A stretch of 64,000 nt of DNA, taken from NCBI GenBank assembly GCA_029834535.1, contig JAQMWT010000490.1, positions 1 to 64,000 of the forward strand, given 5' to 3'. Shown one piece after another: positions 13,058-64,000 of this stretch; within the stretch, counting starts at the first letter, position 1; every line of letters begins with the position of its first letter. Below the pieces are notes generated by a model. It was not told where the DNA came from, made no database searches, and worked only from the letters and a program-made list of their open reading frames with translations. The position numbers and the translations under genes were made by a program. Source of the DNA: Chrysophaeum taylorii (Eukaryota; Sar; Pelagophyceae; Pelagomonadales; Pelagomonadaceae).

Positions 13058-13191
13058 CCGTTGTGGGCGTCGAGGGCTATGTACGCCATGGCGGACGGGG
13101 GTATCACGGCTGCTAGATGCTTCATTCGGTCCGTGATTGTGAGTTTACCCCATGCGAGATCGCGCGGCATCGTGAGAGCCTCCGCGAGCAT

Positions 13192-32640: not shown

Positions 32641-32648
32641 TTAGAAAC

Positions 32649-33958: not shown

Positions 33959-33960
33959 AC

Positions 33961-39050: not shown

Positions 39051-41440
39051 AGTAAGGCCAAGTCGGGTTTTCCCGGCCTTTTTCTCGGGGGGCAAGCCCC
39101 CCGAACCCCCGGGAATTGGGGGGGGGTCTGCCCCAAACCCCCGCCGGGGACACCCCCGGACCCCCCACCGCCTCGACGGCCGCCGCGTCTCGGGAGCCGA
39201 CCAAAAACGCCGTCGCACGCCCTGGAAATTCTGTCTTTTCGGTTCTTGAAGATTTCTGCGCAATTTTCGTTCTTGGGTTAGGGTGTGTACCGTTTTCCTT
39301 CCTTTCCGTTGCGCGAAGCGTTCTGGGGGTTAGCGTTATGCCTGTTTATTTTCGGCTTTGCGTTTTTGCGGATGGACTATGAGATGGCGGATGGCCGCTT
39401 TCTTTATTGGAGTATTTCCCTATAGACAATATTTTGGTGTAGGCGCCGGGGTGGCGGCGGGCGTAGTGAGAAGGAGGGCGTGGCGCATAATCCATAGATA
39501 GCGGACGCGCCGTCGCGGTCGACGGTCCAGAGGTTCTCGCGGCGAGGACGGCCGCTGCGGGAAGAGCGAGGCGTGGCCGCGGAAGCGGACTTCGCCGTAG
39601 ACGCGAGCGGGAGGTCTTCGTCTCCGTCGGCGATGGCCAGAGCGCGGCCACGGGCGGTCGTCGTGGACGCGCGCGAGCGCGGCCGGTCGTCGGCGCGTCG
39701 GCGCGCGGCGCGCTCGTCGCGGTCGTCGCCGCGTTGTTCCTGGTCTTCGATCCGTAGGCGCTCCAGCAGTAGGTCGCGAGGTTTGCGATGGCCAGAACGC
39801 GGCCAGTCCCAGGACGTGGCGCGACCACCGTCGACCAAAGCGAAATCGCGGTCGCAGACGCGTCGAGGTCGACGACGCCTCGACGAAGGCCGCGACTTTA
39901 CGGCGAGCCGTTGTCGCCCGCGGGGAGAGTCCGAGGCCGCGGTCGGGACGGCGGTGGCCGCTCGCAGCGGCGACGAAGACGCCGGCACGCATCGTATCGA
40001 AGCGCTGGCAGACGCGTCGAGCGCGCCGCCGAGTTTTTTTTCGGGTTGGTCGACTGGACGTCAACCCGCGGGCGAGTCCGAGTCCGCGGTCGCGACGGCG
40101 GTGGCCGCTCGCAGCGGCGACGAAGCCGCCGGCACGCATCGTATCGAAGGTCAAACGGTGTTCGATCCACCGAGTCGACGGTCGAGTCTCGTTCGGTCGC
40201 GCGCGTTCTCGAGGACGTCCCGTCGGAAGAGCGAGTCGTGGCCGTGGAAGCGGGCTTTGACCGCAGACGCGAGCGCGGCAAGCCGTTCTCGATTTCGGTG
40301 GCCGGTCGCAGCGGCGACGAAGACGCCGGCACGCATCGCGCGGTACCGAAGAGTTCGCGCGGAATAAAGGCGAAATCGCGTCGCATTTTTGCGCGCGCCA
40401 GAACCCCGAAAGAACATCGAAAGAAACACCCCGGCATGCCATGCCGGCGTCGAGGCTCGCGTCCCTGGCTCGAGCGCGTCGTCCCGTTTGCCGGGCGAAG
40501 GCTCCATCGCCGTCGCACGCGTCAACCTTACTTCAAAGATCGGCCGAGGGTTTGCATAGCAAAAAAAGAGGAAGAAGGGTAAGGGTTTTCTTTTAAAAAT
40601 ACTAAGGGTTTTCTTCTTCGATATACTCTCGATGTTTGCGACTACCAGCGTCCAATTTACTACGGGATTCGAACTCCAAACCAGAGACCTAGGCGCACCA
40701 CATACCAGAAAATCGTCGTCACCCACACTCCCCAGGCTACACTCAGCATACAAACCGACCAACAGGATCCGAACTCGAGACGTACGTACAGGAACCACCC
40801 CAGATTCTCGCTCAAACTTCTTCGCTCTCTGTCATACTACAAGGCTCTCAGAGATGCCAAGAAGAAAACATTTTATAAATAGCAACGCTTTTGGCGCATA
40901 CATTTGGCAAAGAACAGAAAGTAGGTCGCGGGTGAAGCTAACTAACTAACTTCAGACCTCTCCCGAGCATGGGAGCCAGGCCGGACCGACAGGAGCCCGT
41001 CCGGAATCACGGGCCTGTAGACGAGGGGCGCCGAAAGGTGGGTCGGCGGAGAGTGATCATCAAGCTTGTCGCCATGCGACGAGGAGACCGCGATGTGACT
41101 GACAACCAACTCGTCGATAACCTTCCGTCTGCGCCCCCCCGGCCATACCCCGTCCCACTGCGAACGTTCCGGCTGCCAACCGGCCCGCCCGAGAGGCGAA
41201 TAGGTGCCAACCTACGCCGGGAGGGCGGATGCCCTCGCAAGGCTCAGGATTCATGAGGCACCGTCCTCCATCGCAACCATGCGGTCGGCGATGAAGCGTT
41301 TTGAAATAAATCGGCTTTACAAAACGCAGATTTTGTCGGCCCGTTTCGAGCATACATGCTCGTTCGAACAGAAAGTATAGTTCCGTTGATGTGCTGTCAC
41401 GGACAGACTCACGTTTCCCAATTAATTATTGTGGACTAGT
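39051..41440 (+). repeat. GC-rich composite repeat, M1-M2-M3-M4 with SINE
   Basis: A complete order of modules: M1 39051-39230, M2 39230-39480, M3 39480-40560, M4 40560-41440, with SINE copy 2 in M4. It is nearly identical to the flanking unit to its left at a spacing of about 2.39 kb, which marks a recent tandem duplication. Confidence 0.85.
40939..41291 (-). mobile_element. SINE-like element, full copy 2 (duplicated with its flanks)
   Basis: Same insertion site, same TGAAGC duplication (40933-40938 and 41292-41297) and almost the same sequence as the copy at 38552-38904. The only difference I saw is T versus C near the 5' end (38873 against 41252 or nearby). It arose by duplication of the host segment and not by a second transposition. 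Confidence 0.9.
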
Positions 41441-43485
41441 AAAGCCAAGTCGGGTTTTTTCCGGCCTTTTCTCGGGGGGCAAGCCCCCCGAACCCCCCGG
41501 GAATTCGGGAATTGGGGGGCTCTGCCCCCCAAACCCCCCGCCGGGGGACACCCCCGGACCCCCCACCGCCTCGACGGCCGCCGCGTCTCGGGAGCCGACC
41601 AAAAACGCCGTCGCACGCCCTGGAAATTCTGTCTTTTCGGTTCTTGAAGATTTCTGCGCAATTTTTCGTTCTTGGGTTAGGGTGTGTACCGTTTTCCTTC
41701 CTTTCCGTTGCGCGAAGCGTTCTGGGGTTAGCGTTATGCCTGTTTATTTTCGGCTTTGCGTTTTTTGCGGATGGACTATGAGATGGCGGATGGCCGCTTT
41801 CTTTATTGGAGTATTTCCCTATAGACAATATTTTTGGTGTAGGCGCCGGGGTGGCGGCGGGCGTAGTGAGAAGGAGGGCGTGGCGCATAATCCATAGATA
41901 GCGGACGCGCCGTCGCGGTCGACGGTCCAGAGGTTCTCGCGGCGAGGACGGCCGCTGCGGGAAGAGCGAGGCGTGGCCGCGGAAGCGGACTTCGCCGTAG
42001 ACGCGAGCGGGAGGTCTTCGTCTCCGTCGGCGATGGCCAGAGCGCGGCCACGGGCGGTCGTCGTGGACGCGCGCGAGCGCGCGGCCGGTCGTCGGCGCGT
42101 CGGCGCGCGGCGCGCTCGTCGCGGTCGTCGCCGCGTTTTTCCTGGTCTTCGATCCGTAGGCGCTCCAGCAGTAGGTCGCGAGGTTTGCGATGGCCAGAAC
42201 GCGGCCAGTCCCAGGACGTGGCGCGACCACCGTCGACCAAAGCGAAATCGCGGTCGCAGACGCGTCGAGGTCGACGACGCCTCGACGAAGGCCGCGACTT
42301 TACGGCGAGCCGTTGTCGCCCGCGGGGGAGAGTCCGAGGCCGCGGTCGGGACGGCGGTGGCCGCTCGCAGCGGCGACGAAGACGCCGGCACGCATCGTAT
42401 CGAAGCGCTGGCAGACGCGTCGAGCGCGCCGCCGAGTTTTTTCTCGGGTTGGTCGACTGGACGTCAACCCGCGGGCGAGTCCGAGTCCGCGGTCGTGACG
42501 GTGCTGGCCGCTCGCAGCGGCGACGAAGCCGCCGGCACGCATGGTATCGAAGGTCAAACGGTCTTCGATCCACCGAGTCGACGGTCGAGTCTCGTTCGGT
42601 CGCGCGCGTTCTCGAGGACGTCCCGTCGGAAGAGCGAGTCGTGGCCGTGGAAGCGGGCTTTGACCGCAGACGCGAGCGCGGCAAGCCGTTCTCGATTTCC
42701 GTGGCCGGTCGCAGCGGCGACGAAGACGCCGGCACGCATCGCGCGGTACCGAAGAGTTCGCGCGGAATAAAGGCGAAATCGCGTCGCATTTTTGCGCGCG
42801 CCAGAACCCCGAAAGAACATCGAAAGAAAAACCCCGGCATGCGATGCCGGCGTCGAGGCTCGCGTCCCTGGCTCGAGCGCGTCGTCCCGTTTGCCGGGCG
42901 AAGGCTCCATCGCCGTCGCGCGCGCCAACCTTACTTCAAAAAAGATCGGCCGAGGGTTTGCATAGCAAAAAAAGAGGAAGAAGGGTAAGGATTTTCTTTT
43001 TAGAAACACTAAGGGTTTTCTTCTTCGAAATACTCTCGATTTTTACGACTACCAGTGTCCAATTTACTGCGGGATTCGAACTCGAAACCACGGACCTAGG
43101 CGCACCACATACCCGAAAATCGTCTTGACCCGCAATCCCCAGGCTACTCACAGCATACAAATCGACCACCAGGATCCGAACTCGAGACGTACGTACCACA
43201 ACCACCCCAGATTCTCGCTCAAACTTCTTCGCTCTCTCCCATACTACAAGGCTCTCACAGATGCCAAGAAGAAAACATTTTATAAATAGCAGCGCTTTTG
43301 GCGCATACATTAGCGAAAGAACAGAAAGTAGGCCGCGGGTGAAGCGTTTTGAAATAAATCGGCTTTACAAAACGCAGATTTTCTCGGGCCGTTTCGAACA
43401 TACATGCTCGAAAGAACAGAAAGTATAGGTCCGGTAATGTTTCCTCACACACAGACACACGTTTCCCAATTAATTATTGTGGACT
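41441..43485 (+). repeat. GC-rich composite repeat, M1-M2-M3-M4 without SINE
   Basis: M1 41443-41625, M2 41625-41880, M3 41880-42965, M4 42965-43485. M1 to M3 match the preceding unit closely. M4 is an uninterrupted version showing the empty SINE site GCGGGTGAAGCGTTTTG at about 43337. The near-palindrome of M3 has one substitution here. Confidence 0.85.
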
Positions 43486-45550
43486 AGTAAAGCCAAGTCG
43501 GGTTTTTTCCGGCCTTTTTCTCGGGGGGCAAGCCCCCCGAACCCCCCGCCGGGGGACATCCCCGGACCCCCCACCGCCTCGACGGCCGCCGCGTCTCGGG
43601 AGCCGACCAAAAACGCCGTCGCACGCCGTGGAAATTCAGTCTTTTCGGTTCTTGAAGATTTCTGCGCAACTTTTCGTCCTTGGGTTAGGGTGTGTACCGT
43701 TTTCCTTGCTTTACGTTGCGCGAAGCGTTCTGGGGGTTAGCGTTATGCCTGTTTATTTTCGGCTTTGCGTTTTTTACGGATGGACTATGTGATGGCGGAT
43801 GGCCGCTTTGTTTGGAGTATTTCCTTATAGACAATATTTTTGGTGTAGGCGCCGGGGTGGCGGCGGGCGTAGTGAGAAGGAGGGCGTAAAAAAGGCGAAA
43901 TCGCGTCGCATTTTTGCGCGCGCCAGAACCCCGAAAGGACCCCGAAAGATAAGATGGAGCCCCGATGCCGGCGTCGAGGCTCGCGTCCCTGGCTCGAGCG
44001 CGTCGTCCCGTTTGCCGGGCGAAGGCTCCATCGCCGTCGTCAACCTTCAACCTTCAAAAAGATCGGCCGAGGGTTTGTATAGCAAATAGCAAAAAAGAAT
44101 GAATAAGGGTAAGGGTTTTTTTCTTCGAATTACTCTCGAAAATATAACCACCAGGATCCGAACTCGAGACGCACGTAGCGCAACCTCCCCAGATTCTCGC
44201 TCGAAGTTCGTCGGTCTCTCCCACAACACAACACTCTCCTGCACTCCAAGATGAAAACATTTTATAAACAGCACCGCTTTTGGCGCATACATTGGCTAAA
44301 GAACAGAAAGTAGGTCGCGGGTGAAGCGTTTTGAAATAAATCGGCTTCACAAAACGCAGATTTTCTCGGGCCGTTTCGAACATACATGCTCGAAAGAACA
44401 GAATGTAGAGAACCGTTGATCTCGAGTGACTGACGGACTGACGTTTCCCAATTAATTATTGTGGACTAGTAAGGCCAAGTCGGTTTTTTTCCGGCCTTTT
44501 TCGGCCTTTTTCTCGGGGGGCAAGCCCCCCGAACCCCCCGAGAATTGGGGGGCTCTGCCCCCCAAACCCCCCGCCGGGGGACACCCCCGGACCCCCAGGG
44601 TCTCGACGGCCGCCGCGTCTCGGGAGCCGACCAAAAACGCCGTCGCACGCCGTGGTTCGGTTCGGCCGTGGCGGGAAGAGCGAGGCGTGGCCGTGGAAGC
44701 GGGCTTCGCCGTAGACGCGAGCGGGGAGGTCTTCGTCTCCGTGGGCGATGGCCAGAGCGCGGCCACGGGCGGTCGTCGCGGACGCGCGCGGGCGCGCGGC
44801 CGGTCGTCGGCGCGTGGGCGCGCGGCGCGCTCGTCGCGGTCGTCGCCGCGTTGTTCCTGGTCTTCGATCCGTAGGCGCTCCAGTAGTAGGTCGCGAGGTT
44901 TGCGATGGCCAGAGCCCGGCCAGTCCCAGGACGTGGCGCGACCACCGTCGACGAAAGCGAAATCGCAGTCGCAGACGCGTCGAGCTCGACGACGCCTCGA
45001 CGAAGGCCGCGACTTTACGGCGAGCCGTTGTCGCCCTAGTAAAGCCAAGTCGGTTTTTTTCCGGCCTTTTTCTCGGGGGGCAAGCCCCCCGAACCCCCCG
45101 GGAATTCGGGAATTGGGGGCTCTGCCCCCCAAACCCCCCGCCGGGGGACACCCCCTGACCCCCCACCGCCTCGAGGGCCGTCGCGTCTCGGGAGCCGACC
45201 AAAAACGCCGTCGCACGCCGTGGAAATTGAGTCTTTTCGGTTCTTGAAGATTCTGCGCAATTTTTCGTTCTTGGGTTAGGGTGTGTACTGTTTGCGCGAA
45301 GCGTTCTGGGGGTTAGCGTTATGAACCCCCTGAGAATTGGGGGGCTCTGCCCCCCAAACCCCCCGCCGGGGGACACCCCCGGACCCCCCACCGCCTCGAC
45401 GGCCGCCGCGTCTCGGGAGCCGACCAAAAACGCCGTCGCACGTCGTGGTTCGGTTCTTGAAGATTTCTGCGCAATTTTTCGTTCTTGGGTTAGGGTGTGT
45501 ACCGTTTTCGTTCCTTTCCGTTGCGCGAAGCGTTCTGGGGGTTAGCGTTA
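43486..45550 (+). repeat. GC-rich composite repeats, truncated modules
   Basis: A series of shortened units: M1 43487-43630, M2 43630-43885, last part of M3 43885-44085, M4 44085-44468, M1 44469-44650, middle of M3 44655-45037, M1 45038-45230, M2 fragment 45230-45325, M1 fragment 45325-45450, M2 fragment 45450-45550. Junctions lack target duplications, which suggests deletion and recombination between modules. Confidence 0.75.
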
Positions 45551-46488
45551 TCCTAACTACTAATCGACAGATGTTTGTCTGTTTGTCTGTTTGTCTGTTT
45601 GCTTGTCTGTCCCCCGATTTAGGGTAAGGATCAGGTAGGCCCGCGAGCCAGCCATTGATCCTCGAAGCCGTCTACGGCGACCTCGCAGACTATTTCCACG
45701 ACCCGCGGCGGCTCTTTCAGCGCGCCATTCTCACGCCCCGTCGAAACGATGTTGTCGATGCTGACAACGCGCGCATGACCGCGGCATTTTTTTCCCGAAG
45801 ACGAGGCGTCGGAGTTCTTTCGGCTGACTAGGTTGGGTCGGAAGCCGACGCCTCGCTCTTAACAGTCGAGTTTTCAACTCCCTGACAACCAACGACATGC
45901 TGACTTTGATCGTGAGCTTATAGTCTTCGCAACCTCGACCCGTCGCACGGCCACTGCAACGGTACCAGATACATGATCGATCGTGTCGTGTCACCGAGGC
46001 TCCTCCAACCTGCATCCCTCAAGCCCCACCGACGCCAAACGATCAACAAGAGCCAGAGGCAGACGCCCCGCAAAGTCGGCGTCCTCTTGCCCAAGCCCGT
46101 CTTCTGCCACGTCCAGCACTACGTGGCTCTCTGTCGATCGGCAACCCCGAGGATATGCTCTTCTGAGTCGACGACTCCACCCTACCCCACACGTGCTGCG
46201 CAATACCTATAAGCCCCCTCCCGGCGTCTACACGCGCACTGTAGGTGAGCTTACTGGGCCAGGTGAACTTGCTGGGGTTTGAGATTGGGACTCGGTGAAC
46301 TAAGTGACCAGGTGAACTTACTGAGACCAGGTGAACTTACGGAGGGTTTTAGAGTAAACTCAAAGGTTAGCGGCGTGTGCGGATCAAAGCGCCGTGGATT
46401 GGCGGAGGCGAGAGCGACGAGCTCAAAGGAGAGTGGGGTAAGTGGGTGTGAGCACGAGTGGGTTTACGATGGGATAGAGATTGGGACT
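45551..46488 (+). repeat. Rep1 unit, direct
   Basis: Starts CCTAACTACTAATCGACAG plus TTTG/TCTG runs and GATTTAGGGTAAGGATCAGG, then the Rep1 core and minisatellite. It ends at TTGGGACTAC, where it meets an inverted unit with no spacer. Confidence 0.85.
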
Positions 46489-47582
46489 ACAAGTGCAGGC
46501 CAGTAAGTTCACCTAGTCCCAATCTCTAACCCCAGTAAGTTCACCTGGTCCCAGTAAGTTTCATATAAGTTCACCTGGTCAGTAAGTTCACCTAGCTCTA
46601 ACCAACTCCTTTGAGCTCGTCGCTCTCGCCTCCGCCAATCTAAGCTGCTTTGATCCGCACGCGCCGCCAACCTTTGAGTTTACTCTAAAAACCCTTTACT
46701 CTGAAAACCCCAGTATGTTCACCTGGTCCCAGTTTCACCTGGTCACTCAGTCCACCTAGTCCCAATCTCAAACCCCAGTAAGTTCACGTGGTCCCAGTAA
46801 GTTCACCTATAGTGCGCGTGTAGACGCCGGGAGGGGGCTTATCGGTATTGCGCAGCACGTGTGGGGTAGGGTGGAGTCGTCGACCCAGATGAGTATATCC
46901 TCGGGGATGCCGATCGACAGAGAGCCACGTAGAGCTGGACGTGGCAGAAGACGGGCTTGGGAAAGAGGACGCCGACCTCGCGGGGCGTCTGGCCCTGGCT
47001 CTTGTTGATCGTTTGGCGTAGGCGGGCCTTAAGGGATACAGGTTGGAGGAGCCTCGGTGACACGACGCGATCGATCATGTATCCGGTGCCGTTGCAGAGG
47101 CCGTGCGACGGGTCGAGGTTGCGAAGACTTTAACCTCGCGATCAAAGTCAGCATGCCGTTGGTTGTCAGGGAGTTGAAAACTCGACTATAAAGAGCGAGG
47201 CGTCGTCTTCCGACCCAGCCTAGTCAGCGGAAAAGAACTCCGACGCCTCGTCTCCGGGAAAAAAAGGCCGCGGTCATGCGCGCGTTGTCAGCATCGACAA
47301 CATCGTTTCGACGGGGCGTGAGAATGGCGCGCTGAAAGAGCCGCCGCGGCTCGTGGAAATAGTCTGCGAGGTCGCCGTATACGGCTTGGAGGATCACTGT
47401 CTGGCTCTCGCGCCTACCTGATCCTTACTCTCGCGCCTACCTGATCCTTACCCTAAATCGAGGGACAGACAAACAGTCGACATTTAAAGACAGACAAACA
47501 GACTCTTAGCAGTCGACATTTAAAGACAGACAGACAAACAGACAAACAAACAGACAGACAAACATCTGTCGATTAGTAGTTA
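46489..47582 (-). repeat. Rep1 unit, inverted
   Basis: Reverse-complement Rep1 copy beginning AAGTGCAGGCCAGTAAG and ending with ACAAACAGACAG runs and TCTGTCGATTAGTAGTTAGG. With the unit to its left it forms a second inverted pair in the window. Confidence 0.85.
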
Positions 47583-47690
47583 GGAAGTGAACTAACTGAC
47601 CAGGTGAACTTACTGGGACCATACCTGAACTTACTAGGGTTAGAGATTGGGACTAGGTGAACTTACTGGCCTGCACTTGTGCCTGTTTAT
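47583..47690 (+). repeat. Rep1 minisatellite fragment
   Basis: A short direct-orientation piece of the GTGAACTTACTGGGACC minisatellite ending CCTGCACTTGT, joined directly to M2 sequence starting GCCTGTTTATTTTCGG. Confidence 0.75.
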
Positions 47691-48953
47691 TTTCGGCTTT
47701 GCGTTTTTTGCGGATGGACTATGTGATGGCGGATGGCCGCTTTCTTTATTGGAGTATTTCCTTATAGACAATTTTTTCGTGTAGGCGCCGGGGTGGCGGC
47801 GGGCGTACTGAGCAGGAGGGCGTGGCGCATAATCCATAGATAGCGGACGCGCCGTCGCGGTCGACGGTCCAGAGGTTCTCGCGGCGAGGACGGCCGCAGC
47901 GGGAAGAGCGAGGCGTGGCCCTGGAAGCGGGCTTCGCCGTAGACGCGAGCGGGGAGGTCTTCGTCTCCGTGGGCGATGGCCAGAGCGCGGCCACGGGCGG
48001 TCGTCGCGGACGCGCGCGGGCGCGCGGCCGGTCGTCGGCGCGTCGGCGCGCGGCGCGCTCGTCGCGGTCGTCGCCGCGTTGTTCCTGGTCTTCGATCCGT
48101 AGGCGCTCCAGTAGTAGGTCGCGAGGTTTGCGATGGCCAGAGCCCGGCCAGTCCCAGGACGTGGCGCGACCACCGTCGACGAAAGCGAAATCGCGGTCGC
48201 AGACGCGTCGAGCTCGACGACGCCTCGACGAAGGCCGCGACTTTACGGCGAGCCGTTGTCGCCCGCGGGGGAGAGTCCGAGGCCGCGGTCGGGACGGCGG
48301 TGGCCGCTCGCAGCGGCGACGAAGACGCCGGCACGCATCGTATCGAAGCGCTGGCAGACGCGTCGAGCGCGCCGCGGAGTTTTTTTTCGGGTTGGTCGAC
48401 TGGACGTCAACCCGCGGGCGAGTCCGAGTCCGCGGTCGCGACGGCGCTGGCCGCTCGCAGCGGCGACGAAGCCGGCGGCATCGTATCGAAGGTCAAACGG
48501 TGTTCGATCCACCGAGTCGACGGTCGAGTCTCGTTCGCTCTCGCGCGTTCTCGAGGACGTCCCGTCGGAAGAGCGAGTCGTGGCCGTGGAAGCGGGCTTT
48601 GACCGTAGACGCGAGCGCGGCAAGCCCTTCTCGATTTCGGTGGCCGGTCGCAGCGGCGACGAAGACGCCGGGCACAGCATCGCGCGCGTACCGAAGAGTT
48701 CGCGCGGAATAAAGGCGAAATCGCGTCGCATTTTTGCGCGCGCCAGAACCCCGAAAGAACATCGAAAGAAAAACCCCGGCATGCCATGCCGGCGTCGAGG
48801 CTCGCGTCCCTGGCTCGAGCGTGTCGTCCCGTTTGCCGGGCGAAGGCTCCATCGCCGTCGCACGCGTCAACCTTACTTCAAAAAAGATCGGCCGAGGATT
48901 TGCATAGCAAAAAAAGAGGAAGCAGCGTAAGGGTTTTCTTTTTATTAGAAATA
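47686..48953 (+). repeat. GC-rich composite repeat, M2 end and M3
   Basis: The second half of M2 (47686-47825) followed by a full M3 (47825-48905) with the near-palindrome CCGGCATGCCATGCCGG at 48776-48792, then 50 bp of M4 start. The right side is cut by an inverted Rep1 unit. Confidence 0.8.
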
Positions 48954-49735
48954 CAAGTGCAGGCCAGTAAGTTCACCTAGTCCCAATCTCTAACCCCAGT
49001 AAGTTCACCTAATCCCAGTAAGTCCACCTGGTCAGTAAGTTCACCTAATCCCAGTAAGTCCACCTGGTCAGTAAGTTCACCTAGTCCCAATCTCTAACCC
49101 CAGTAAGTTCGGCGTAAACCCACTCGTGCTCACACCCACTCACCCCACTCTCCTTCGAGCTTGTCGCTCTCACCTCCGCCAATCTAAGCCGCTTTTATCC
49201 GTACACGCCGCTAGCCTTTGCGTTCACTCTAAAAACCCCTGTAAGTTCACTTGGTCCCAGTAAGTTCACCTGGTCACTTAGTTCACCGGAGGAGCCTCGG
49301 TGACAACGACACGATCGATCATGTATCTGGTACCGTTGCAGTGGCCGTGCGACGGGTCGAGTTTGCGAAGACTTTAAGCTCGCGATCAAAGTCAGCATGC
49401 CGTTGGTTGTCAGGGAGTTCAAAACTCGACTGTAAAGAGCGAGGCGTCGGCTTCCGACCCAACCTAGTCGGCCGAAAAGAACTCCGACGCCTCGTCTTCG
49501 GGAAAAAAAGGCCGCGGTCATGCGCGCGTTGTCAGCATCGACAACATCGTTTCGACGGGGCGTGAGAATGGCGCGCTGAAAGAGCCGCCGCGGGTCGTGG
49601 AAACAGTCTGCGAGGGCGCCGTAGACGGCTTGGAGGATCACTGCCTGGCTCGCGCGCCTACCTGATCCTTACCCTAAATCGAGGGACAGACAGACAGACA
49701 AACAAACAAACATCTGTCGATTAGTAGTTAAGACT
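48954..49735 (-). repeat. Rep1 unit, inverted, internally deleted
   Basis: Minisatellite (48957-49285) joined to the second half of the Rep1 core (from GGAGGAGCCTCGGTGACAAC). The first ~170 bp of the core in this orientation, including the sequence that gives the GAGGATATGCTCTTC block, is missing. Confidence 0.8.
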
Positions 49736-54466: not shown

Positions 54467-54662
54467 TAGAGATAGAAATTTTGAATTAGGTTTAGTACCC
54501 CCCTATCCTAGGGTTAGCTCTCTTACTTTTAGCACCTTTTGATTTAAGAAAACGCTGTGTTATTCACGCCGGCTGTCCTCGTTACAGGAGACAGATACGA
54601 GGGCCGACTACCACTGCTCTCACTCTGCTGAAGGGTAACACAGTCAAAATTACTGTTCTCTA
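54467..54662 (+). repeat. 5' LTR of element B
   Basis: This 196-bp LTR starts TAGAGATAGAAATTTTG and ends TTACTGTTCTCTA. It aligns, with many differences, to the LTRs of elements A and C read in their sense: shared blocks include the start, a C-run, CGCTGTGT, ACTACCACTGC, CACAGT and the end. No target duplication can be tested because the right end is lost. Confidence 0.75.
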
Positions 54663-54695
54663 GGTATTGGGCACCAGTCCCGGTATCAGCAGAGT
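54663..54695 (+). other. Candidate primer-binding region of element B
   Basis: Directly after the LTR: GGTATTGGGCACCAGTCCCG followed by GTATCAGCAGAG. The first 20 bases resemble the equivalent site of element A. GGTATCAGCAGAG is close to the GGTATCAGAGC used by many plant elements with initiator tRNA-Met. I cannot decide which part primes. Confidence 0.4.
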
Positions 54696-54747
54696 CCCAG
54701 GATTTCCAGAAGAGTTCCGCCCCCTGACGTTCCTGAACCAAAACAAG

Positions 54748-56262
54748 ATGCCAACCAACCAAGAACTCCAGGAGGAGATAAAAGACCAAGAAGCTCGCAT
54801 AGAGGCAAAGCACACGATGGAGATGCAAGCACAACATCAAATGATGCGAGCTCGAGCGCTACAAGCACTCCAAGCACAACTCAATGCCATGCAGACACTA
54901 CCTGCCGTCGCTGCTGCGACTGCTCCCCCCACTCCAGCTCAACAAGACCCCAAGCACAAGGCTAACACCTTTAGTGACCCACCTAGCGCCGTCCTCAGGT
55001 CAATGGACTCCGCTCAAGTCAGACCCCAAATGCTTTCATTTCGCGTTATGCAGTTGTTCGTCGAACATCTGATGCCTGAAACAGGCATAGCGCAATACTT
55101 ATAGCAGGGCCTCTACGCGTGGGAATCCGTCTTACGTGGATGTAATGATCTAGCTGACGCTCTTCTCAGCCACTGTATCAAGGAATATGACAAGGACCCC
55201 GACAACCACGCTACCGCCGGGAACACGCGAGATTTCCAAGGCCGTTACGTCTACTACAAGGGCGTTTACCGCAAGTTCGGCAAACACTTCCTGGAGAACG
55301 TCTACGAGCCTAAGCTCCAAGAACTTAAAGACCAAGACAAGGACACGACCGATAAGACCGAAGGAAAGTTGTATCCGACCACACAACCTCACCTCCAAGG
55401 AAAAGAAGCCGACTTCATCGTGTACCTCCGCGAGACCGTGCACCCCGTTTTTCGCCGTTTCCTGCTCGCCGGTAACGACTCCGTCAAGCACCCAGCATAC
55501 GACGAAATCGATGCACTCGGATCCTCCCATCCGATAGGACTCGAATTTGAGCTCAAAGTCCGCCTCGCACTTGACAAGCACACGGGCCAGAACCACGTCC
55601 ACCATGCGCATTATGTTTATAATGCCTTCCTGGACACGCCGTTCAACCCGGAGATCCACGAGCCTGCGCGTTATATCGATAATATGCGCCACGTTCAGCA
55701 ACAACTTCGCCAAATTACAGACGATGCCTCTCTCCAACTTCCCGACGACAAGATCCTCACGGAAATCCACCAGATGCTCCGGTCCAAGTACCCTCCAAGC
55801 TTGCTTGACTCCCGCGCCCCAACCCATATCAAGGGCTTCGCGCGTCTTGCCAACTGTCTGCGCACCCCCAACGACTCACTGTTACTCGACGAAGACAAAG
55901 AAGCGATAAATCATCTTCCCAAGTTGATCGCCCGCATCACGGTTATCTCCACGTTCGAGCGCAACTTTTGGGCTCACCTCAAGCCTCATCCAACTCTGAA
56001 CTTCAAGCCGTTGCGATTCGTCACTGACTTTGGTCGTCTGCCGACTAAAGACAAAGATAATCCACGTTTTCGCTCCCGCCGTCACGGTCACCACTTCACC
56101 GAAGATGATGATGACACCTCACCCTCTGAAGATGAAATCCCACCGGATCCCGATGAAGCACCCCCTGAAGACACCGACCCTGTTGCCGTTTTTCTCACGG
56201 AAGCCAACCTCGATCCAGATAACGACAAAACTCTCATCCAACATCTTCACGCCTATCAATAA
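54748..56262 (+). pseudogene. Element B gag, one in-frame TAG
   Basis: The first ATG after the LTR opens a coiled-coil N-terminus (EELKDQEARIEAKH-like; Gln/Ala-rich to residue 50). A TAG at 55102-55104 interrupts an otherwise continuous frame to the TAA at 56260-56262, about 505 codons in all. The middle, rich in His/Tyr/Leu helices, resembles a capsid region. The last 60 residues are strongly acidic (HFTEDDDDTSPSEDEIPPDP). No CCHC zinc knuckle is seen. Coding continues in another phase after the stop (about 56260-56590), a possible frameshift site or a decay product. Confidence 0.7.
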
Positions 56263-57823
56263 GCAACTCGCACGCCACCCCAAGAAACCTCCACCCAAAA
56301 AGCCTCCAACTCCTCGCTCCCCGTCGCACTACGACATCAATGACAGCACTAAGCCCAAGGTCACCCCTGTCACCCCAACCAATAACAAACACAATCCCCG
56401 TGCTTCTCCTGTCACCCCCGACAAACGCGAGCACCCGCACCTTCGCAAGGTCACTTTTCCCACTCAACCGCATCCCCCAACGCCATCTACTCCTGACCAA
56501 CGCTTCAATGTCCCTCTTCGTGATGTTCGTCGCAAGCTCCAGGCCGTACGGAACCTGAGTCAAGCCGGTCGTCAACACACGTCCAACTCATAGCGCATGA
56601 CCAGCTCATCAACCTCAGCACCACTATCTCCGATGAGATACTTCTCTCCGAGGCCGAATCGGATGCCGCCGAGTTTCTTCAGGTGCTATCGTCCGATCCT
56701 CAGGATGATCCACCCGACGAGGGCGAAGCCGACGAAAAAGATGACCAAGGCCACCTCGGTTTCTATGATGACCACGGACAGCTAGGCCTCTACGACGACA
56801 TCATCCCCGAAATAGATGATGAAGACGACTCCGCCGAGATTACGCACAACGTCACAGCGACTACATGCGTGCTCTACACCAGAGTCAGCTTTTTCGCTGA
56901 TGGTTGCCGACGACGCCTGTGCCGCCAACCACACATTATCGAATCAGGCCCTACGCCTCGCGATGAAGAATTTCCCGACCTCATCCACCCTCTCCCTCAG
57001 AGTCGCAAATTTTCTTTGTGCCACTTACACTCCAGGAAAGTCCCCCACAAAGACTAACTCGCTACACGGATGCAATGGACCCGGCACTGAAATTTCGCTA
57101 ATTGACGGTGGCGCATCATTTCACTTTTCATTTTGCTTCACTCGCACAAACCAACATTTTGTTCCCGAGTCCATACGCGGGATTCCCGAATACACCATTC
57201 GAATGGGCAGAGGCACCTTAACCAGCCACTTCATCGGTGTCAAACCGTTGTATTTGCAGGCCGCAGGTCTCTCCTACAAGGATATCAAAGACTCCACAGG
57301 TTACGTCTTATACCTCGTCTTTCTGGTCGTCCCGCAATTCAGAAAAGGTCTACAGGTTATAGCGACATCTCAGCTCAAAGCTCTGAACGTCCAAGCAACA
57401 GACCCGCCACTGCCACACGAACCATACTTATATGAGCTTATGAACACGTCGACCGCAGATCCCCACGATTATAAGACGCTTCTAGGCAAAACCGCAGTAG
57501 TTCTCGCCAATCGCCAAACTAATGGTCTATTGTCCCTGCCATCCCATCCAAAGCAAACATTCCGCGCTGTGCTTAGTTTTCACACCGGAACGAGAATGTC
57601 ACTCAAGGATGAGCTCGCACACATCACGCAGAACGTCGCGAAGACACGCTCGCAATCTCATATGTTAGATTTCGCAAAATTACAGCATCATTCTATATTT
57701 TTGACGGAGCTTATCAGCCTCCCGCGTACTGTCGTCCAATATGCATTCACTGGCTCAGCGGACCTCTCTGTGCAAGCACAACCCCCTCCGCTAAACACAG
57801 CCATTATTACAGGTGGACTCCAC
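56263..57823 (+). pseudogene. Element B gag-pol linker and aspartic protease
   Basis: A basic Pro/Lys-rich stretch (56263-56590) is followed by acidic sequence in another phase (about 56600-56880). A frame then opens to 57823. It contains the retropepsin-like segment GTEISLIDGGASFHF (active Asp codon 57104-57106), where DSGA or DTGA is usual; the Gly in the second position is atypical and may be disabling. The frame ends at a TAA that lies inside motif I of the following methyltransferase. Confidence 0.6.
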
Positions 57824-59060
57824 TAAGAAGGCTTTGACTCTTTTCGCAAACGCTTCGACAAACGCATTACTGTCGTGGTCGCCTGTGAAACTAACCCTAA
57901 TATGCGCGCCCGCGCGCAACAACTCTTCCCGCACGCTCAGCATTATGCGGATCTAAGAAAGCTCACTGCCGCTCTGCAAACCGGCAAAATACGACTACCT
58001 CAACTCGACTTGGCAGTCTTCACCTTGCCGTGTCAACATCTGAGTGTAATGAAAGAATATGACGGCTATGCCACTCCGGTGACCGCCGACCTTTTCGTCA
58101 AAGAACAAATCCGCTTTGTTCGTTGCACGCTCCCGACATACACCATTGTCGAGAATGTACCCCCCAACCCCCGAAATCATCACGAGTACACTGAACTCGC
58201 CAACTGCTATCAGCGCATCGGTTATTTCAGACACTCCGGTGTCTACAATGCCTCCGCTTTGGCGACGTCACAAGCAAGACCGCAGCCGGAACGTTCGCTG
58301 TGGGACGGGGTACGGCCGGGGGGCGCAGACGGAAGGTTATCGACGAGTTGGTTGTCAGTCACATCGCGGTTTCCTCGTCGCATGGCGACAAGCTTGATGA
58401 TCACTCTCCGCCGACCCACCTTTCGGCGCCCCTCGTCTACAGGCCCGTGATTCCGGACTGGCTCCTGTCGGTCCGGCCTGGCTCCCATGCTCGGGAGAGG
58501 TCTGAAGTTAGTTAGTTATAAGCAAGACCCGCCACCTCGCTGCCTATGTCCGACACCCGCTCACTGGCTACAACCTCGAGAAAACCGCTTCTCCTTGGTT
58601 AATATCTCCTCCGAGCATGGTTCCCCTCCTGGACCCCAGTCACACTATCCCCGACGATCTCTGGATCGCCAACCCCGCCCTTCGTGGCACAGTGACCCGC
58701 TCCACATTCGACTATTGCCACAACAAGGCCACCTTCTCATACAAACCCGCCAACGCCTCCAAACTCTCGATTTCCGAGAATGCACGCATCTGCCAAATGC
58801 TCACACGCTCGAAGAAGCCCTTTACGGATTTAGGACGCGACGCCGACGGCACCCCCTATGCCTCGATGACCAATATCTCCCATCTCCTGGCATTCACATT
58901 GCTGCACAATCACTTGTCGCAACATCCTACTCTCGCCGCTTGGAACACCCTCCGCTGTTTTCATGCCTCAGAGTCACAATGTGCTTACCATTTGGATGGA
59001 GCCATCACCGGCACTGTCGCTACTGCCGTCGCATGTGGCTACTTCCCGCGCGCCTCCCTC
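57797..59060 (+). pseudogene. C5 cytosine-DNA methyltransferase domain in element B, disrupted
   Basis: Successive C5-MTase motifs are visible. They are motif I-like ITGGLH-stop-EGF (57803-57835), motif II VVVACETNP (57872-57898), motif IV LPCQHLS with catalytic Cys at 58031-58033, motif VI ENV at 58151-58159, and motif VIII-like FGDVTSKTRH (58258-58281, resuming at 58521). Motif IX-like LSISENARICQM is at 58764-58799 and motif X-like AITGTVATAVACG at 59001-59039. Without the SINE the span is about 1.0 kb, or 330 residues, normal for a bare catalytic domain. It is in the protease phase, so it was part of the polyprotein. TAA at 57824, a phase change at about 58250 and the SINE inactivate it. 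Confidence 0.75.
58282..58519 (+). mobile_element. SINE-like element, 5'-truncated, inside the methyltransferase
   Basis: AAGCAAGACC (58272-58281) is repeated at 58520-58529. The insert begins at GCAGCCGGAACGTTCG, internal to the longer copies at 38552 and 40939, and ends in GTTAGTTAGTTAT. A truncated 5' end with an intact tail and a target duplication is the signature of target-primed reverse transcription. Its sense strand is plus. Confidence 0.92.
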
Positions 59061-59153
59061 ACCCTCCATTCCAGGCCCCCTCAGATATTGGACTGTTCCC
59101 ACCAACCCGCAGTCTTCTCCCCAACGCACACCTTTTCCATGGATGTCCCCAAT

Positions 59154-59202
59154 GGCACCGCCTTTCTGGTCGTAGCAGGGCACCGCCTTTTCTGGTCGTA
59201 GC
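59154..59202 (+). repeat. 24-bp tandem duplication in element B
   Basis: GGCACCGCCTTTCTGGTCGT and four more bases occur at 59154-59177 and again at 59179-59202 with one extra T. The duplication changes the phase between the methyltransferase end and the integrase frame. Confidence 0.85.
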
Positions 59203-61156
59203 CTATACCAGTTCTTTGGCCGCCGCTCACAGCTGCTCGCGCCCCTCCACGTGGGTCCACTACATGAATCGCTCGCATCCCGGCGTTGCCACGATCGATT
59301 CACAAGGGCGAATCACACTCGATGACCCCACGGGACTCGTAATGTCCAAAGCACGTCCCACTTACGCGGACTATGTCGGCCACATCGGAGACACGCTTCA
59401 GAAAAGCACCAAGTGCTACTCGGTCACTGGCTCGTACCCAACCAACACGAGCTACTCCAACGCACTACTGCTGATCTCTCCCGACCACATCCGCTATGCG
59501 ACTCTCAATGAAATCGCAAAGTTCGGACCCCACTCGGACCCGGAACTGCTCCGCCTGTTCCAACAGCACCCGCCGTACTTCGCGTCCAAGGCACTGGCCA
59601 ACGCCGTCCCGCACAACATGCTGCAGGCCAAGTACAGCGCTGTCCTCGCACTCCACGAATCGCGCCATGTGAACCTTCACATCGAATGGGCAACCATACG
59701 CAATGGCATTCCCAGCCCCGGTGACATCAACCAGGTTGCAGAATTCTTCCTGAACATCTCCAGCCGTCTCTTAGCAGAGGAGGACCTCAACCTCACCTCC
59801 CTCCTCAGTGCCGTAGCAGATGCTCACCATGATGCGATCCGCAAGCCGAGCAAATCGAAAAACCTCGAGACGCTTCTCGCCGAGGCCACAGTTGGTAAAG
59901 TCCTAGTTGACAAGCGACCCAACCCCCCTAGCGCTTCGACTGCCGCTCTGCCCCCCTTGCACAAGCCCGGCACCATTCAGCACGCGGGAAGAGTGCTTTT
60001 GGTCACTCGCTGGCAGCGCATCCACCACCAACAAACAGAGAATCTTCGCCGCACGATTGCCGCCAATGTAACGAATCTCCGCCCACGTGATGATCGGTAT
60101 CTGCAAGACTGCAGCGAATGCAAGCGCTGTCAATCGCATGTCAGCTTCCGTCACAAGAACACTTCCTGGTCACAGGATGAACTAGCCTACGCTCCTGGCC
60201 AACATCTCCATATGGATGTCTCATACCCGAGCATCAGCAATTGCTATGGTGGCTTTCGTTACATCATGCATTTTCGTGTGATTATTTCGGCACACAAATG
60301 GGTATACTTCCTGAGGAAACTAGACGCGCAGGACGTTCTGGTTGGCATCCTCTATGTGGTCAATGTGATTAAGGTCGAATTCGATGTAAGTGTGAAAATC
60401 ATCTCATCTGAGACCTTTTCCACTTTCCGCTCCGAAGTTTTCCACCCGCTCAAGGTGCAGCTCGGTATCCAGCTTCAAATCATTGGTCGCCACCTACACC
60501 AGCGAAAATTCGCGGAAAACATCATTAAGGAAAACGCACGAGGCACTGTACTCCGCCTCCTCAACCTTCGCAGTGTCCGCATCGAAGGAAGGCCTATCGC
60601 CGCCGAGTATTATCACCCGTTTGCTCTGCGGCATAAGATCCAAGCCGACAATCAGCGCTCTCATGGACTGCCCTCGCGCACTACCATGACCTGCACCGTC
60701 CCCCGGCGCATCATGTCACCCATGGCACCGCTCCTGAAGCTCCTTCCCTTTGGCGAACCTGTCACCTTTGTCTATCCTCAAAGTCACAAACTGGAAACCT
60801 TCAGCGTCTCCGCCTATTATCTTCATAGCAACAATTACCTCCCGAACCTCCCCGGCACAGACCGATTTATCCGTGATGTTCATAGCTCTATCCTGCTTGT
60901 ACATCGGGGGCGATATGGGAAAATCGTCACCTCTAACGACTCCCACGTTGATGCTGACATGCCAGTCAACCGCAACAAGGAGATCGAACGGATCAAAGCA
61001 CACACGCAGATCCCAACAGAGGCACGGCAAGAGGACCCGCTTCCAGCTATAAGCCAACAACAAATGCCGGAAATCAGACAGGAATCGAAAAACGAGGGCG
61101 AGACTCATGATGACGACCAGGATGATAAACCCGACGATGACGACGAGCACAAATAA
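59203..61156 (+). pseudogene. Element B integrase region
   Basis: An uninterrupted frame of about 650 codons. After a spacer domain of unknown role (59203-59980) comes a His/Cys zinc-finger region (HH...CSECKRC, about 60030-60140), then the integrase core: PGQHLHMDVSYP with the first Asp at 60215-60217, YGGFRYIMHF, HKWVYFLRKL. The second catalytic position is degraded (SSETFSTF where SDNGGEF is typical). The Glu equivalent, in KFAENIIKENAR, is at 60515-60517. An acidic tail (DDDQDDKPDDDDEH) ends at TAA 61154-61156. The loss of the second Asp suggests inactivity. Confidence 0.75.
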
Positions 61157-62172
61157 CCGGATCCAAACTCCGCTGCTGATCCAAGTCCCGTCAGCGACGA
61201 GACAGCTGAACATGATTTTTCGTTCCTCAACCGGCCACCTCCGCCGAATGGTAGCATTCCGATGCCCAAACGAAAGGATCGCTAATAGGTTGTTCTCGAC
61301 GATGCAGGTTTTACTCCAGTTCTCGTGCATCGCAACCAGAGTGACAAACTCAAGGCAGATCTCAAAGACGAGCGCGGATTCCGCACTCGCAAGGATCAAC
61401 TCTATATCGTGAAACGTGTCGACGATGGAAAACTTTTCACCAGACGCATTATCGCTTCAGAGTATGGTCGCAACTGGAAATACGAGCAGGAGCAATCCAC
61501 GGCCCGCGCCACAGCCAACATGTCCAGCACATTGATGTTCCTCGTCAGTGTCAGCGCTCTGCACCAGGGCCATGTCGTCAGCATCGCATCTGATCTCAAC
61601 ATTAGAAGGGATGCTCAGCCGCCCGATGATGTCCCGAAAGGATGTCTCCAAGCAAATACCACGCAAGACTATGGTATCGCGGGCGGCACTGCACTGGATC
61701 TGCAGAGAGAACCGACGCAGAACTCTTGTACGTTGACTTCCCAAGGAGGCCGTACCACTCATCTGTATTGGTCGACCACCTGGACAACGACAATTCAGAT
61801 CTCGAGAACTATGTGTGCCACGACGAACTGTCACCAGCAGAGTACTGTGCGCGTCAATGGAACCAAGAATTCTGTTGTATGAGCTCCTCTCTCTTATGGG
61901 ACATTGCAGCGCATCAGCACTACCACTTAGCTTCTCGTCACAGACATGCCTTCATGCATGATTCTGGCGAACTCGGACACCTCTTTCTAAGTCAAGGTGA
62001 TCCGAACCTAGACATTTTTCAAGAAGTCATGGACTATGACTTGCAGCACATCGACCATGTCGTGTTACAACTCGTGACTGCTGAAGACATTGTCTATGAA
62101 CCTGAGAAGATTGTCGAACTCAAAGGACTCCGCGAAGGAGATAAGCTCAAGCATATCGCTTCGATTCGCTAA
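61157..62172 (+). pseudogene. Element B integrase-RT linker, several frames
   Basis: Coding-like sequence continues in the integrase phase past stops at 61156 and about 61283 (PKRKDR, then GFTPVLVHRNQSDKLKADL), then in a second phase from about 61640 to a TAA at 62170-62172. No domain is recognised. In copia elements this interval holds the variable integrase tail. Confidence 0.5.
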
Positions 62173-63490
62173 GAAATTGAAGGCTTGTGCTCCAACGGCG
62201 TCTTTAAGCTTGAGCCTTTACCGCCAGACCGTTTGTCTATCTCGACGAAACTCGTGCTGAAGATCAAGTATTTTGCTGACGGCACCCCACACCGCTATAA
62301 AGCTCGTCTAGTTGCCCGAGGTTTCTTGGCACGTGTCGGCATTGACTTTTATGCCACATCTCCACCGAACGCGATGCTCGCCACCAACCGGTTATTGCTC
62401 GCCATCGCTGTGAAGCACAGGCTCCCGGTCGCGCACGCAGACATTCCCCTGGCATTCATCCAATCGGCACTCGATCGCCCGGTATGGATAGACTTACCTC
62501 GAGGAATACGTGTCTCACACAATCTTATCCAACAGATACAGAAAAACCACCCAGAGTCCAAGTTAACTCTCCGACTCGTCAAGTCTAGCCTCTTTATGGT
62601 TTCAAACAGTCAGCTTTGTTGTGGAACATTAAGCTCGACTCGTTTCTTCGACAACATGAGTTCGAAAGCTCACAAGTCGTTACTTGCCTCTATATCAGTT
62701 GGGATCGATCTATCAACAGATGGGTTCTCCTATCCGTCTCTGTCGATGACCTATTGATCACTGGTACCAACACTGCCAAATTCACGTCTCTTCGCACCGC
62801 ACTGGAGAAGGAATATGGCAAAGGTACATGGCATGATAACATCCGATCCTTCCTTGGTATCGATGTACACTACAACGTCTCCGCTGGTCATCTCACTATG
62901 AATGTAGCCGCGAAGATAAACAAGATGCTCGCCGAGCATAAACTCAACCTCCATACTACTGACGTCCCCTACTCGGACATTCCCACTCAAAAACCTTCTG
63001 CTGAGCTTCTCTCCGACTTGGCTCCCACTTTAGAAATTTACGCAAGCATTTTCCTCACTACCGTGGCACTAGTATTTACTTGTCTGTCACAAGTCGCCCA
63101 GATATCTCCACTCTGTGCAACAAATGCCGCAAGGGTATGCACAACCCTGAGCAGACCCATCTTCTGCACTTGTATGTTTTACTTCGCTATTTGAAGGGTA
63201 CTCCGAATGATTCTCTCGACTATTCATCCGACAGCCCCTATATTACGCCCTTTCTCCAGCATCTGATCGGAAACTACCCAGAATTGCATCACCTTCGTTC
63301 GCCCATTATTTGTTTTACTGACGCCAGTTTCCGCTGACCGTTCTGACCATCGCTTAAGATCTCATTCTGGTGCATGTATTTTCGTATTTGGCAGAGTCGT
63401 ATTCTGGTCTAGCAAACGCCAAACTCTTACTGCCAAAAGCACCATGGAAGCCGAACTCATCGCCGCTAGCGCTGCCGCTGATGAATGTTA
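62173..63490 (+). pseudogene. Element B reverse transcriptase and RNase H
   Basis: RVT_2-type sequence: EIEGLCSNGVFKLEP, HRYKARLVARGF, motif A HADIPLAF (Asp at 62440-62442), YGFKQSALLWN (about 62594-62625), and motif C SVDDLL at 62739-62753 in place of YVDDLL. RNase H follows with FTDAS (Asp 63320-63322) and STMEAELIAAS (63441-63473). At least three phase changes occur, near 62595, 63070 and 63340. Catalytic acidic residues are kept, so the decay is by indels more than by loss of active-site codons. Confidence 0.8.
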
Positions 63491-63493
63491 ATG

Positions 63494-63679
63494 TAGGGAA
63501 CAGTAAAAATCACTGTGCCCCTGGGCGAGAATGGTGGCAGGGTAGTGCCATTCTACTTGTCCTGTTCTCTTACGACGCAAAGAGCAGCACGGTGTTCGAC
63601 ACAGCGATTTTGGGTGTTTAGGTGTGAGTGTGAGACTAGGGGGGAGGGGTCCTAACCCTGCATGGAGTTTTCTATCTCA
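63494..63679 (-). repeat. LTR of element C
   Basis: This 186-bp copy is more diverged from the two LTRs of A than they are from each other, with terminal changes (TAGGGA for TAGAGA, TCTCA for TCTCTA). Confidence 0.85.
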
Positions 63680-63937
63680 ACGCCCTCGCAGATTGAACTC
63701 GGTGATGAGCGAAATCTGGAACAAACAAAACAAATGTCTGGCCAGAGACAATTAATTGGACGTTGAGTTGTGAGGAGGCGTTGAATGAGAAGTGTGTGAA
63801 GTGCATGAGACAGATAGAGTAGAGCGGAATAGCAGGTGAGTGTGAGTGAGAAAGGAGAAAGAGCGCGAAGTTGAACGGGGAATAGGTTGAGAGGGGAAGC
63901 AGAATGAAAAGGATATTGCAAGAAGAGGTGAATGATC
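63494..63937 (-). mobile_element. Element C: 3' end of an inverted relative of A (LTR plus internal flank)
   Basis: 63494-63679 is an LTR of the A family (TAGGGAACAGTAAAAATC to TTTTCTATCTCA on the plus strand). 63680-63937 matches the internal sequence of A next to its 3' LTR (20922-21165), including GCCCTCGCAGATTGAACTCG and AGAGCGCGAAGT. It breaks at 63937 where a SINE begins. It therefore reads leftward and abuts the end of RNase H of element B. Confidence 0.85.
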
Positions 63938-64000
63938 TAACTAACTAACTAACTTCAGACCTCTCCCGAGCATGGGAGCCAGGCCGGACCGGCAGGAGCC
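63938..64000 (-). mobile_element. SINE-like element, cut by the window end
   Basis: TAACTAACTAACTAACTTCA followed by GACCTCTCCCGAGCATGGGA matches the tail side of the other SINE-like copies in minus orientation. The body lies beyond the window. Confidence 0.85.

Follow-up and report, generated by a model that had tools for sequence, protein, structure and literature searches.

The window analysed here, a stretch of 64,000 nucleotides (positions 1-64000 of contig C490 in a 70.8-Mb genome of 697 contigs), holds a degraded Ty1/Copia retrotransposon copy at 54467-63488 on the forward strand, in which a domain of the C5 cytosine DNA methyltransferase (DNMT) class sits between protease and integrase. 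A preliminary description of the window had proposed such an element, and the proposal stands: the Pfam methyltransferase profile PF00145 matches the domain, and it stands among gag-like, protease-like, integrase and reverse transcriptase (RT) regions arranged as in Copia elements. Other copies confirm the fusion: the genome has about a hundred or more, many of them fragments. At the level of sequence, these copies establish that Pol contains an in-frame, selected and, by prediction, catalytically plausible DNMT. It is probable that a family of the Ty1/Copia kind took a C5-cytosine methyltransferase into Pol at this position and uses it on its own nucleic acid.

The preliminary description had staked its reading on a significant methyltransferase profile match. 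An open reading frame (ORF) of the window copy at 57827-58450 (+) matches PF00145 over profile positions 22-153 of 324, with an E-value of 2e-9 and a score of 37.8 bits against a cut-off of 22. Of 14 open copies, 12 match the same profile at E <= 1, the best at 1.3e-8, and the NCBIfam model TIGR00675 likewise matches in 12 of the 14. Both libraries score motifs II-VIII alone and nothing past VIII. Motifs I, II, IV, VI, VIII, IX and X had been described as correctly ordered and spaced. The middle of this series holds, as LPCQ starts at 58028 and VENV at 58148 in the window copy and motifs II-VIII are scored; the two ends hold less well, since motif I is degenerate and motifs IX and X were recognized only by eye. 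Methyltransferases of this class have canonical forms of motif I and a GGP-type motif IV. Motif I of the element reads AGGLHQEGF-like instead of the canonical FxGxG in 13 of 14 aligned copies (all that have this stretch), and its Gln codon has become a TAA stop at 57824-57826 in the window copy. At the other end, RYATLNEIAKF from 59492 and ALANAV at 59591-59608, assigned by eye to motifs IX and X, lie outside the Pfam score; under this assignment the Glu is kept in 30 of 31 loci and the Asn in 30 of 34. The domain had been closed at 59060, which is too early: the stretches read as motifs IX and X lie beyond that point, and the domain runs to about 59722. A profile search of the domain against the PDB placed HhaI-type enzymes on top, at E >= 0.09 and not significant. 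None of the 7 PDB matches down to E 10 is named DNMT3, and the Copia DNMT falls into no recognized DNMT family.

How widespread is the fusion? The genome has 57 PF00145 matches, two of which are host genes (L001 and L002), and at least 100 matches to the DNMT domain of one open copy, L009 on contig C96 (best 92 of 733 candidates scored). An ORF of L009 spans 1952 aa in one frame and encodes a protease-like stretch (by eye) ahead of DNMT (profile match at residues 349-475, E 1.1e-7, in a domain of about residues 300-870), then integrase (rve, 1016-1110, E 0.006, under the Pfam cut-off) and RT (RVT_2, 1686-1933, E 1.6e-38). Likewise, an ORF of L010 (1868 aa, one frame) combines DNMT (E 5e-7) with RVT_2. 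Intact relatives of the kind that the preliminary description had suggested looking for are thus present. The order of protease, integrase and RT together with an RVT_2-type RT, found in the second ORF of L009 and, for RVT_2, also in the window, identifies the element as Ty1/Copia.

Linkage was examined between 109 DNMT places (merged pieces plus 17 PF00145 places added by eye) and 131 merged integrase places, which derive from 136 matches among those listed (131 of 777 candidates scored). A same-strand integrase lies within 5 kb downstream of 87 of the 109 DNMT places; none lies upstream and one lies on the opposite strand. The distance from DNMT to integrase is most often 720-725 bp. In other words, the DNMT is not a separate host fragment unlinked to Copia, the outcome that the preliminary description had named as fatal to its reading. 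Among the matches listed, 44 of the 131 integrase places have no upstream DNMT. Three of these 44 were read: one has a 5'-truncated DNMT, one an internal deletion of motifs I-VIII, and one is integrase only. A natural DNMT-minus form lies 4-9 kb past the end of the window (L053, C490:68300-72800), where motifs I-VIII are deleted and the integrase is kept. Matches on contigs C10 and C297, and on C25 and C521, occur at near-identical coordinates, suggesting duplicated or haplotypic contigs, and the copy counts may include a few such doubles.

Pairwise ratios of nonsynonymous to synonymous change (dN/dS) were taken as medians over open copies, with copies that have stops or less than 85% coverage dropped. 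Within the DNMT, the ratio was 0.17 in motifs I-VIII (395 pairs from 29 copies), 0.21 in the middle region (23 copies) and 0.26 in motifs IX-X (26 copies), next to 0.18 for the protease (19 copies), 0.12 for the integrase (17 copies) and 0.12 for the RT (only 3 copies). Read in the wrong frames, motifs I-VIII gave 1.37 and 1.61; for motifs IX-X the wrong frames gave 0.68 and 1.07, a weaker contrast. Residues were counted over 35 independent loci, or fewer where a position is uncovered. The catalytic Cys of motif IV is kept in all 35 loci, the Glu of motif VI in 33 of 35 and the Arg of motif VIII in 34 of 35. For the integrase D, D and E the counts are 27 of 28, 28 of 29 and 26 of 26, and the protease Asp is present in all 23 covering loci. 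Furthermore, DNMT distances between copies follow integrase distances (r 0.91, 16 copies), a correlation that none of 5000 permutations reached. The DNMT domain is under strong selection, has retained its catalytic residues and has been inherited together with the integrase.

Five copies were fetched at both ends for a comparison of their long terminal repeats (LTRs). Four of them have LTR pairs that are 89-96% identical along alignments of 194-208 bp; the fifth, on contig C314, shows two shorter matches, one of 89 bp and one of 60 bp. The LTR termini are TAGAGA...TCTCTA and not TG...CA. The four copies with the long LTR alignments were read for target duplications, and all have 5-bp ones (CTCAC, GGAGA, GTCAT and TATCC), TATCC being accepted with one base change allowed at the start of the 5' LTR. 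The element is therefore an LTR retrotransposon that integrates in the usual way. L009 has an exact tandem duplication of 217 bp between its 5' LTR and gag (L009:1457-1890).

How might such an element use a methyltransferase? The DNMT domain would be made as part of Gag-Pol and packed into the virus-like particle. There it may methylate cytosines of the element's own nucleic acid before integration, most likely those of the new cDNA and possibly those of the RNA. The new copy would then be read as self, and be protected or suitably silenced. The base composition of the copies does not speak for this. CpG is not depleted: its observed/expected ratio is 0.99-1.08 across the window copy and nine loci with their flanks. 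Over 45 pooled pairs of copies, C/T differences are 1.19 times as frequent at CpG (5553/38552) as elsewhere (13293/109974), with a range of 0.97-1.76 by pair; across the sixteen base contexts, the C/T difference runs from 0.073 to 0.204, with ACG the highest. CpG observed/expected is 1.26 and 1.46 at the host loci L001 and L002 and 1.31 in a Gypsy stretch of the window, so the elements lie below these; two other window stretches give 0.98 and 0.99. Because CpG observed/expected is near 1.0 and the C/T excess only 1.19-fold, the copies show no sign of having been lastingly methylated at CpG. These data support neither heavy and lasting methylation at CpG nor self-methylation of cDNA.

Other points, too, count against an enzyme acting on the element's own nucleic acid. 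The degenerate motif I and a motif IV without the usual GGP mean that activity is not assured. Dropping copies with stops biases dN/dS somewhat low, the loci used for residue counts are mostly best matches to the single copy L009, and some rows in the alignment of the 14 open copies hold short frameshifted stretches (in motif VI for L047, in the middle for L010 and at the end for both L024 and L037). Word-based protein searches, with 8000 candidates scored in each, also failed to reveal a relative of the domain. The departures in motifs I and IV, the absent CpG signature and the long extra region between motifs VIII and IX would also fit a domain that is a methyltransferase by descent and now serves as a non-catalytic module for nucleic-acid binding or targeting, for example for the integrase or the tRNA primer. 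However, binding alone would not need the active-site Cys, Glu and Arg that are retained almost without exception, and we regard such a module as unlikely.

An RNA substrate would also account for the absent CpG depletion. The enzyme might methylate the element's genomic RNA or primer tRNA in the manner of DNMT2, and not DNA, and the same genome has a Gypsy-type module that, among what was compared, is most like DNMT2. However, the Copia domain itself has no special likeness to DNMT2, and its best PDB relatives, though not significant, are the HhaI-type DNA enzymes; RNA methylation is thus doubtful to a similar degree. Is the domain a methyltransferase at all? Its scores are modest, since only motifs II-VIII score, at 1e-7 to 2e-9 and not 1e-50, and the PDB matches are not significant. 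That a retrotransposon linker resembles DNMT motifs by chance is nevertheless very improbable, given agreement between two independent profile libraries on 12 of 14 copies each, motifs in order and catalytic residues nearly invariant. The stops, insert and frameshifts of the window copy could suggest a host DNMT pseudogene that landed in one Copia copy by accident, an idea with practically no chance of being right and refuted by the linked, open copies, since the fusion recurs at about a hundred places, stays in frame in other copies and is under selection, and the two host DNMTs found are quite different.

Where did the domain come from? Two word searches, one querying the polyprotein region at E <= 0.01 and the other a profile of 14 copies at E <= 0.1, each gave no match among the best 8000 candidates scored of 5.8 billion proteins. 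In viral and prokaryote contigs, 48 and 104 stretches, respectively, fit a pattern, and none was confirmed as a relative. Of the two host genes, L001 has a full-length PF00145 match and the motif SPPCQPHTRQ, which we take to be a DNMT2 signature, making L001 presumably DNMT2-like. The matches of L002 include fungal proteins with an SNF2 domain and proteins of Tribonema and Phaeothamnion; because of these matches, L002 is called DNMT5-like here, a family name that we assume. Both host genes share the C5 DNMT fold and motifs with the Copia domain; they differ from it in their full PF00145 matches and canonical motifs, and no retrotransposon domain is seen alongside them. A DNMT5-type alignment is collinear with the Copia-domain profile over motifs II-VI (P 0.012, hhalign probability 3.5%), so that a DNMT5-type likeness is suggestive only. 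As judged from sequence, the likeness of the Copia domain to L001 and L002 is too weak to name either as the donor.

A second Copia family, read in pieces on contig C483, appears to carry a related module. Its integrase has 25% identity with that of the first family (E 2e-15). In the slot before the integrase, L061 reads 'LLCSGMSTPA ... TSPC ... MEM ... QARERW', and L060 reads, further on, 'RHYSTRELARANNF ... IIANAIPAG'. Read by eye as DNMT motifs I, IV, VI, VIII, IX and X, these stretches likely represent a related module. A second copy of this family within L051 keeps the motifs with small changes and is open over 611 aa from I to X. The module has no DNMT match in Pfam, NCBIfam or PDB, its hhalign comparisons with the first Copia module are not significant (P 0.17 and 0.36), and a comparison with DNMT5 gave nothing. 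Two other comparisons do connect the families. In tblastn, the two align in one piece from before motif IX into the integrase; with L009, this alignment has 23% identity across 552 aa (E 3e-17), a signal that presumably comes mainly from the integrase. In a shuffle test, the likeness of the second family to the first was beaten by 1 of 2000 shuffles for motifs IX-X and by 43 of 2000 for motifs I-VIII. Because of the one-piece alignment and the shuffle test, the two Copia families probably share one captured domain. The second Copia DNMT-like stretch is found at 137 or more places (best 137 of 1039 candidates scored). A typed RVT_2 place, from a set of 65 drawn from 150 RVT_2 matches among those listed, lies downstream of 24 of the 137 places, upstream of none and on the opposite strand at two.

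A further module was traced in a Gypsy-like family through 110 TIGR00675 matches to motifs I-II (E 0.006-0.055), of which 55 fall in the 100 listed places of this module. Its representative L062, on contig C22, has FSGAGG, SPPC, IEQE and CRVR in order, with a motif I of canonical type, and matches PF00145 above the cut-off over motifs I-II only (E 1.2e-5, 25.4 bits). An ordered motif pattern, framed after the sequences had been seen, arose in 7 of 100000 shuffles for this module and in 15 of 100000 for the second Copia module. L062 matches the host DNMT2 at E 1e-4 in a single comparison, and its match to PDB DNMT2 chains, at E 0.06, is not significant; by sequence, the module most resembles DNMT2 among what was compared. 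Shuffle tests against the two Copia modules revealed no measurable likeness (296 and 231 of 2000), hhalign with the Copia domain was not significant (P 0.15), and a comparison of DNMT5 with the Gypsy module gave nothing. The module occurs at no fewer than 100 places (best 100 of 1266 candidates scored), in frames of up to 3067 aa. With 69 RVT_1 places typed, the RT matches being the best 150 of 611 candidates, an RVT_1 place lies downstream of 7 of 155 Gypsy-module places, upstream of none and on the opposite strand of none. The family seems to be of Gypsy type because of RVT_1 downstream and because its relative in the window stands next to weak integrase C-terminal matches. This relative is a stretch at 13060-13542 (-) that resembles motifs VI-VIII of the module, with 43% identity to L062 over 161 aa and one stop; it has no match to the part with motifs I-IV. 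The integrase C-terminal domain matches (0.0011 and 0.0049, under the Pfam cut-off) fall in an ORF at 11546-13144. Both belong to a Gypsy-like remnant at about 11.5-18.3 kb (11546-18267, -) with an open frame of 1436 aa. A 311-bp direct repeat at 10622-10932 and 19365-19673 (93%) may represent the LTRs of the remnant, and a second repeat pair in the wrong order indicates that it is rearranged.

Do these families reflect a general habit? Hosts commonly silence retrotransposons through cytosine methylation, and here the parasite carries the kind of enzyme that its hosts use against it. A large Copia family that keeps its own DNMT, together with a different one in a Gypsy-like family, suggests capture that is repeated and advantageous. 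We lean slightly towards the view that DNMT capture is the rule among the LTR retrotransposons of this alga, with no fewer than three families involved (a Copia pair that probably goes back to one capture and a Gypsy-like family that probably stems from another), hundreds of copies or more, and methylation as part of the replication cycle or of a truce with the host. The likeness of both Copia families in the shuffle test strengthens this view. Open copies and copies that have lost the domain exist in one genome, so the benefit of the enzyme to the element is testable by comparison.

The anatomy of the window copy, all on the forward strand, was mapped by tblastn with L009 as the query. The 5' LTR at 54467-54662 (196 bp) starts with TAGAGA and ends with TCTCTA, and is followed by a primer-binding-site-like stretch, GGTATTGGGCACCAGTCCCGGTATCAGCAGAG, read by eye. 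A gag-like region at 55169-56897, located by tblastn with the first ORF of L009, is frameshifted and has stops; a Pfam search of the window and L009 ORFs gave no match for it. The protease-like region at 57083-57769 has LIDGGA, by eye the active-site motif, and no Pfam match. The DNMT domain extends from 57773 to about 59722, as delimited by PF00145 and the alignment to open copies. It consists of motifs I-VIII at 57773-58619, a long target-recognition-like region at 58620-59485 and, by the same alignment, a stretch read as motifs IX-X at 59486-59722. A linker up to 60022 leads to the integrase at 60023-61042, where an HHCC-like pattern and then D, D and E were read by eye. The region preceding the RT occupies 61043-62181. 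The Copia RT at 62182-62999 is split by a frameshift, with RVT_2 matches in two ORFs (62173-62757, E 3.8e-17; 62589-63194, E 5.5e-17). The end of the RT and part of a putative RNase H region follow at 63000-63488, the latter read by eye from TDASF at ~63.3 kb, with no Pfam match in that ORF.

Motifs I-VIII are interrupted by an insert of 238 bp at 58282-58519 (+) that resembles a short interspersed nuclear element (SINE). It had been predicted with a target duplication, and its boundaries are exact, with 10-bp duplications at 58272-58281 and 58520-58529. The SINE-like element terminates in TTAGTTAGTT-like repeats, recurs in full at two other window positions with 98% identity (full and partial copies lie at 38552-38789, 40939-41176, 34059-34130 and 63942-64000), and is present in several other loci holding DNMT-Copia copies. 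The window copy is a dead fragment because of the stop in motif I, the SINE, a frameshift at a short duplication near 59180, and further stops and frameshifts in gag, before the RT and in the RT. Beyond 63488 it is no longer homologous to other copies. A search for the 3' LTR gave none: the 5' end has no partner in the last kb of the window or in the 2 kb of contig that follow it, although 64-87 bp at 63646-63732 match the 3' ends of other copies in inverted orientation. Elsewhere in the window, an ORF at 23.3-23.8 kb with 22% identity to the middle region of the DNMT was judged a chance match. GC-rich segments of 1.1-3.1 kb at 29167-49089, repeated several times with 93-97% identity (for example, 37869-40938 and 40260-43345), have arginine-rich open frames on both strands. 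Units of ~1.0-2.3 kb are repeated in both orientations at 1011-7461 (95-97%), with relatives at 46489-47589.

What kind of host is this? Contig C697 encodes an rbcL of 488 aa that adjoins an rbcS-like ORF (by eye). Its best solved relatives score 996 bits and the first plant-type ones about 600; we take the top relatives to be diatom and red-algal enzymes and the protein to be of form ID. Peridinin dinoflagellates use another RuBisCO form. A light-harvesting protein lies antisense in L001 (by eye). Because of the kind of rbcL, this antisense protein and the matches of L002, the host is likely an ochrophyte or some other alga whose plastid is red-derived. The preliminary description had named dinoflagellates and charophyte algae as bearers of such elements and expected a new acquisition in any other lineage. 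As far as this can be tested, the red-plastid-type rbcL beside an rbcS-like ORF argues against a charophyte or a typical peridinin dinoflagellate, and the lineage seems apart from the two in which DNMT retrotransposons have been reported.

The named precedent holds in part: DNMT-bearing retroelements do exist in Symbiodinium and Klebsormidium, but the passages of PMC5890265 (2018) used here assign those of Symbiodinium to long interspersed nuclear elements (LINE) and DIRS and that of Klebsormidium to Gypsy, and state that the Symbiodinium Copia elements are without DNMT. The same passages cite Iyer 2011 for DNMTs linked to reverse transcriptase. With reference to the 2018 paper, one sentence in PMC12344493 places DNMT3 members within elements that it calls 'LTR Copia and DIRS'; the Copia wording, against Gypsy in the cited text, may be a slip or a re-classification, and if it is right, Copia-DNMT is already known in streptophytes. 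A brown-alga DNA transposon in PMC12477816 has, in the part used, a DNMT domain of another kind (N4-cytosine or N6-adenine). Copia-DNMT is not mentioned in the relevant passages of PMC9998398 and PMC6338049, and no other report of it was found by title or abstract start in a search that left most subscription journals outside.

The features of the kind described by de Mendoza in 2018, a DNMT in a retrotransposon ORF, many copies and purifying selection, are found here. According to the passages of PMC5890265, SymbioLINE-Dnmt and SymbioDIRS-Dnmt3 share with the present family a C5 DNMT in a retrotransposon ORF, purifying selection, retained catalytic residues and many intronless copies. They differ in that the LINE has an orphan DNMT and the DIRS a Dnmt3-type one, whereas here a Copia element has its DNMT between protease and integrase; CpG depletion is reported for SymbioLINE, and there is none here. 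KnitGypsy-Dnmt3 of Klebsormidium nitens is likewise LTR-type, with the DNMT in its Pol polyprotein and a Ka/Ks <0.2. However, it combines Gypsy domains, DIRS-like repeats and a Dnmt3, in contrast to the Copia order, plain LTRs and absence of a recognized DNMT family seen here. The Gypsy-like family of L062 is nearer to KnitGypsy-Dnmt3 as a carrier, but its module is most like DNMT2. Thus, DNMT retrotransposons are known as LINE, DIRS and Gypsy elements, and what appears to be new is a Copia carrier with the DNMT between protease and integrase.

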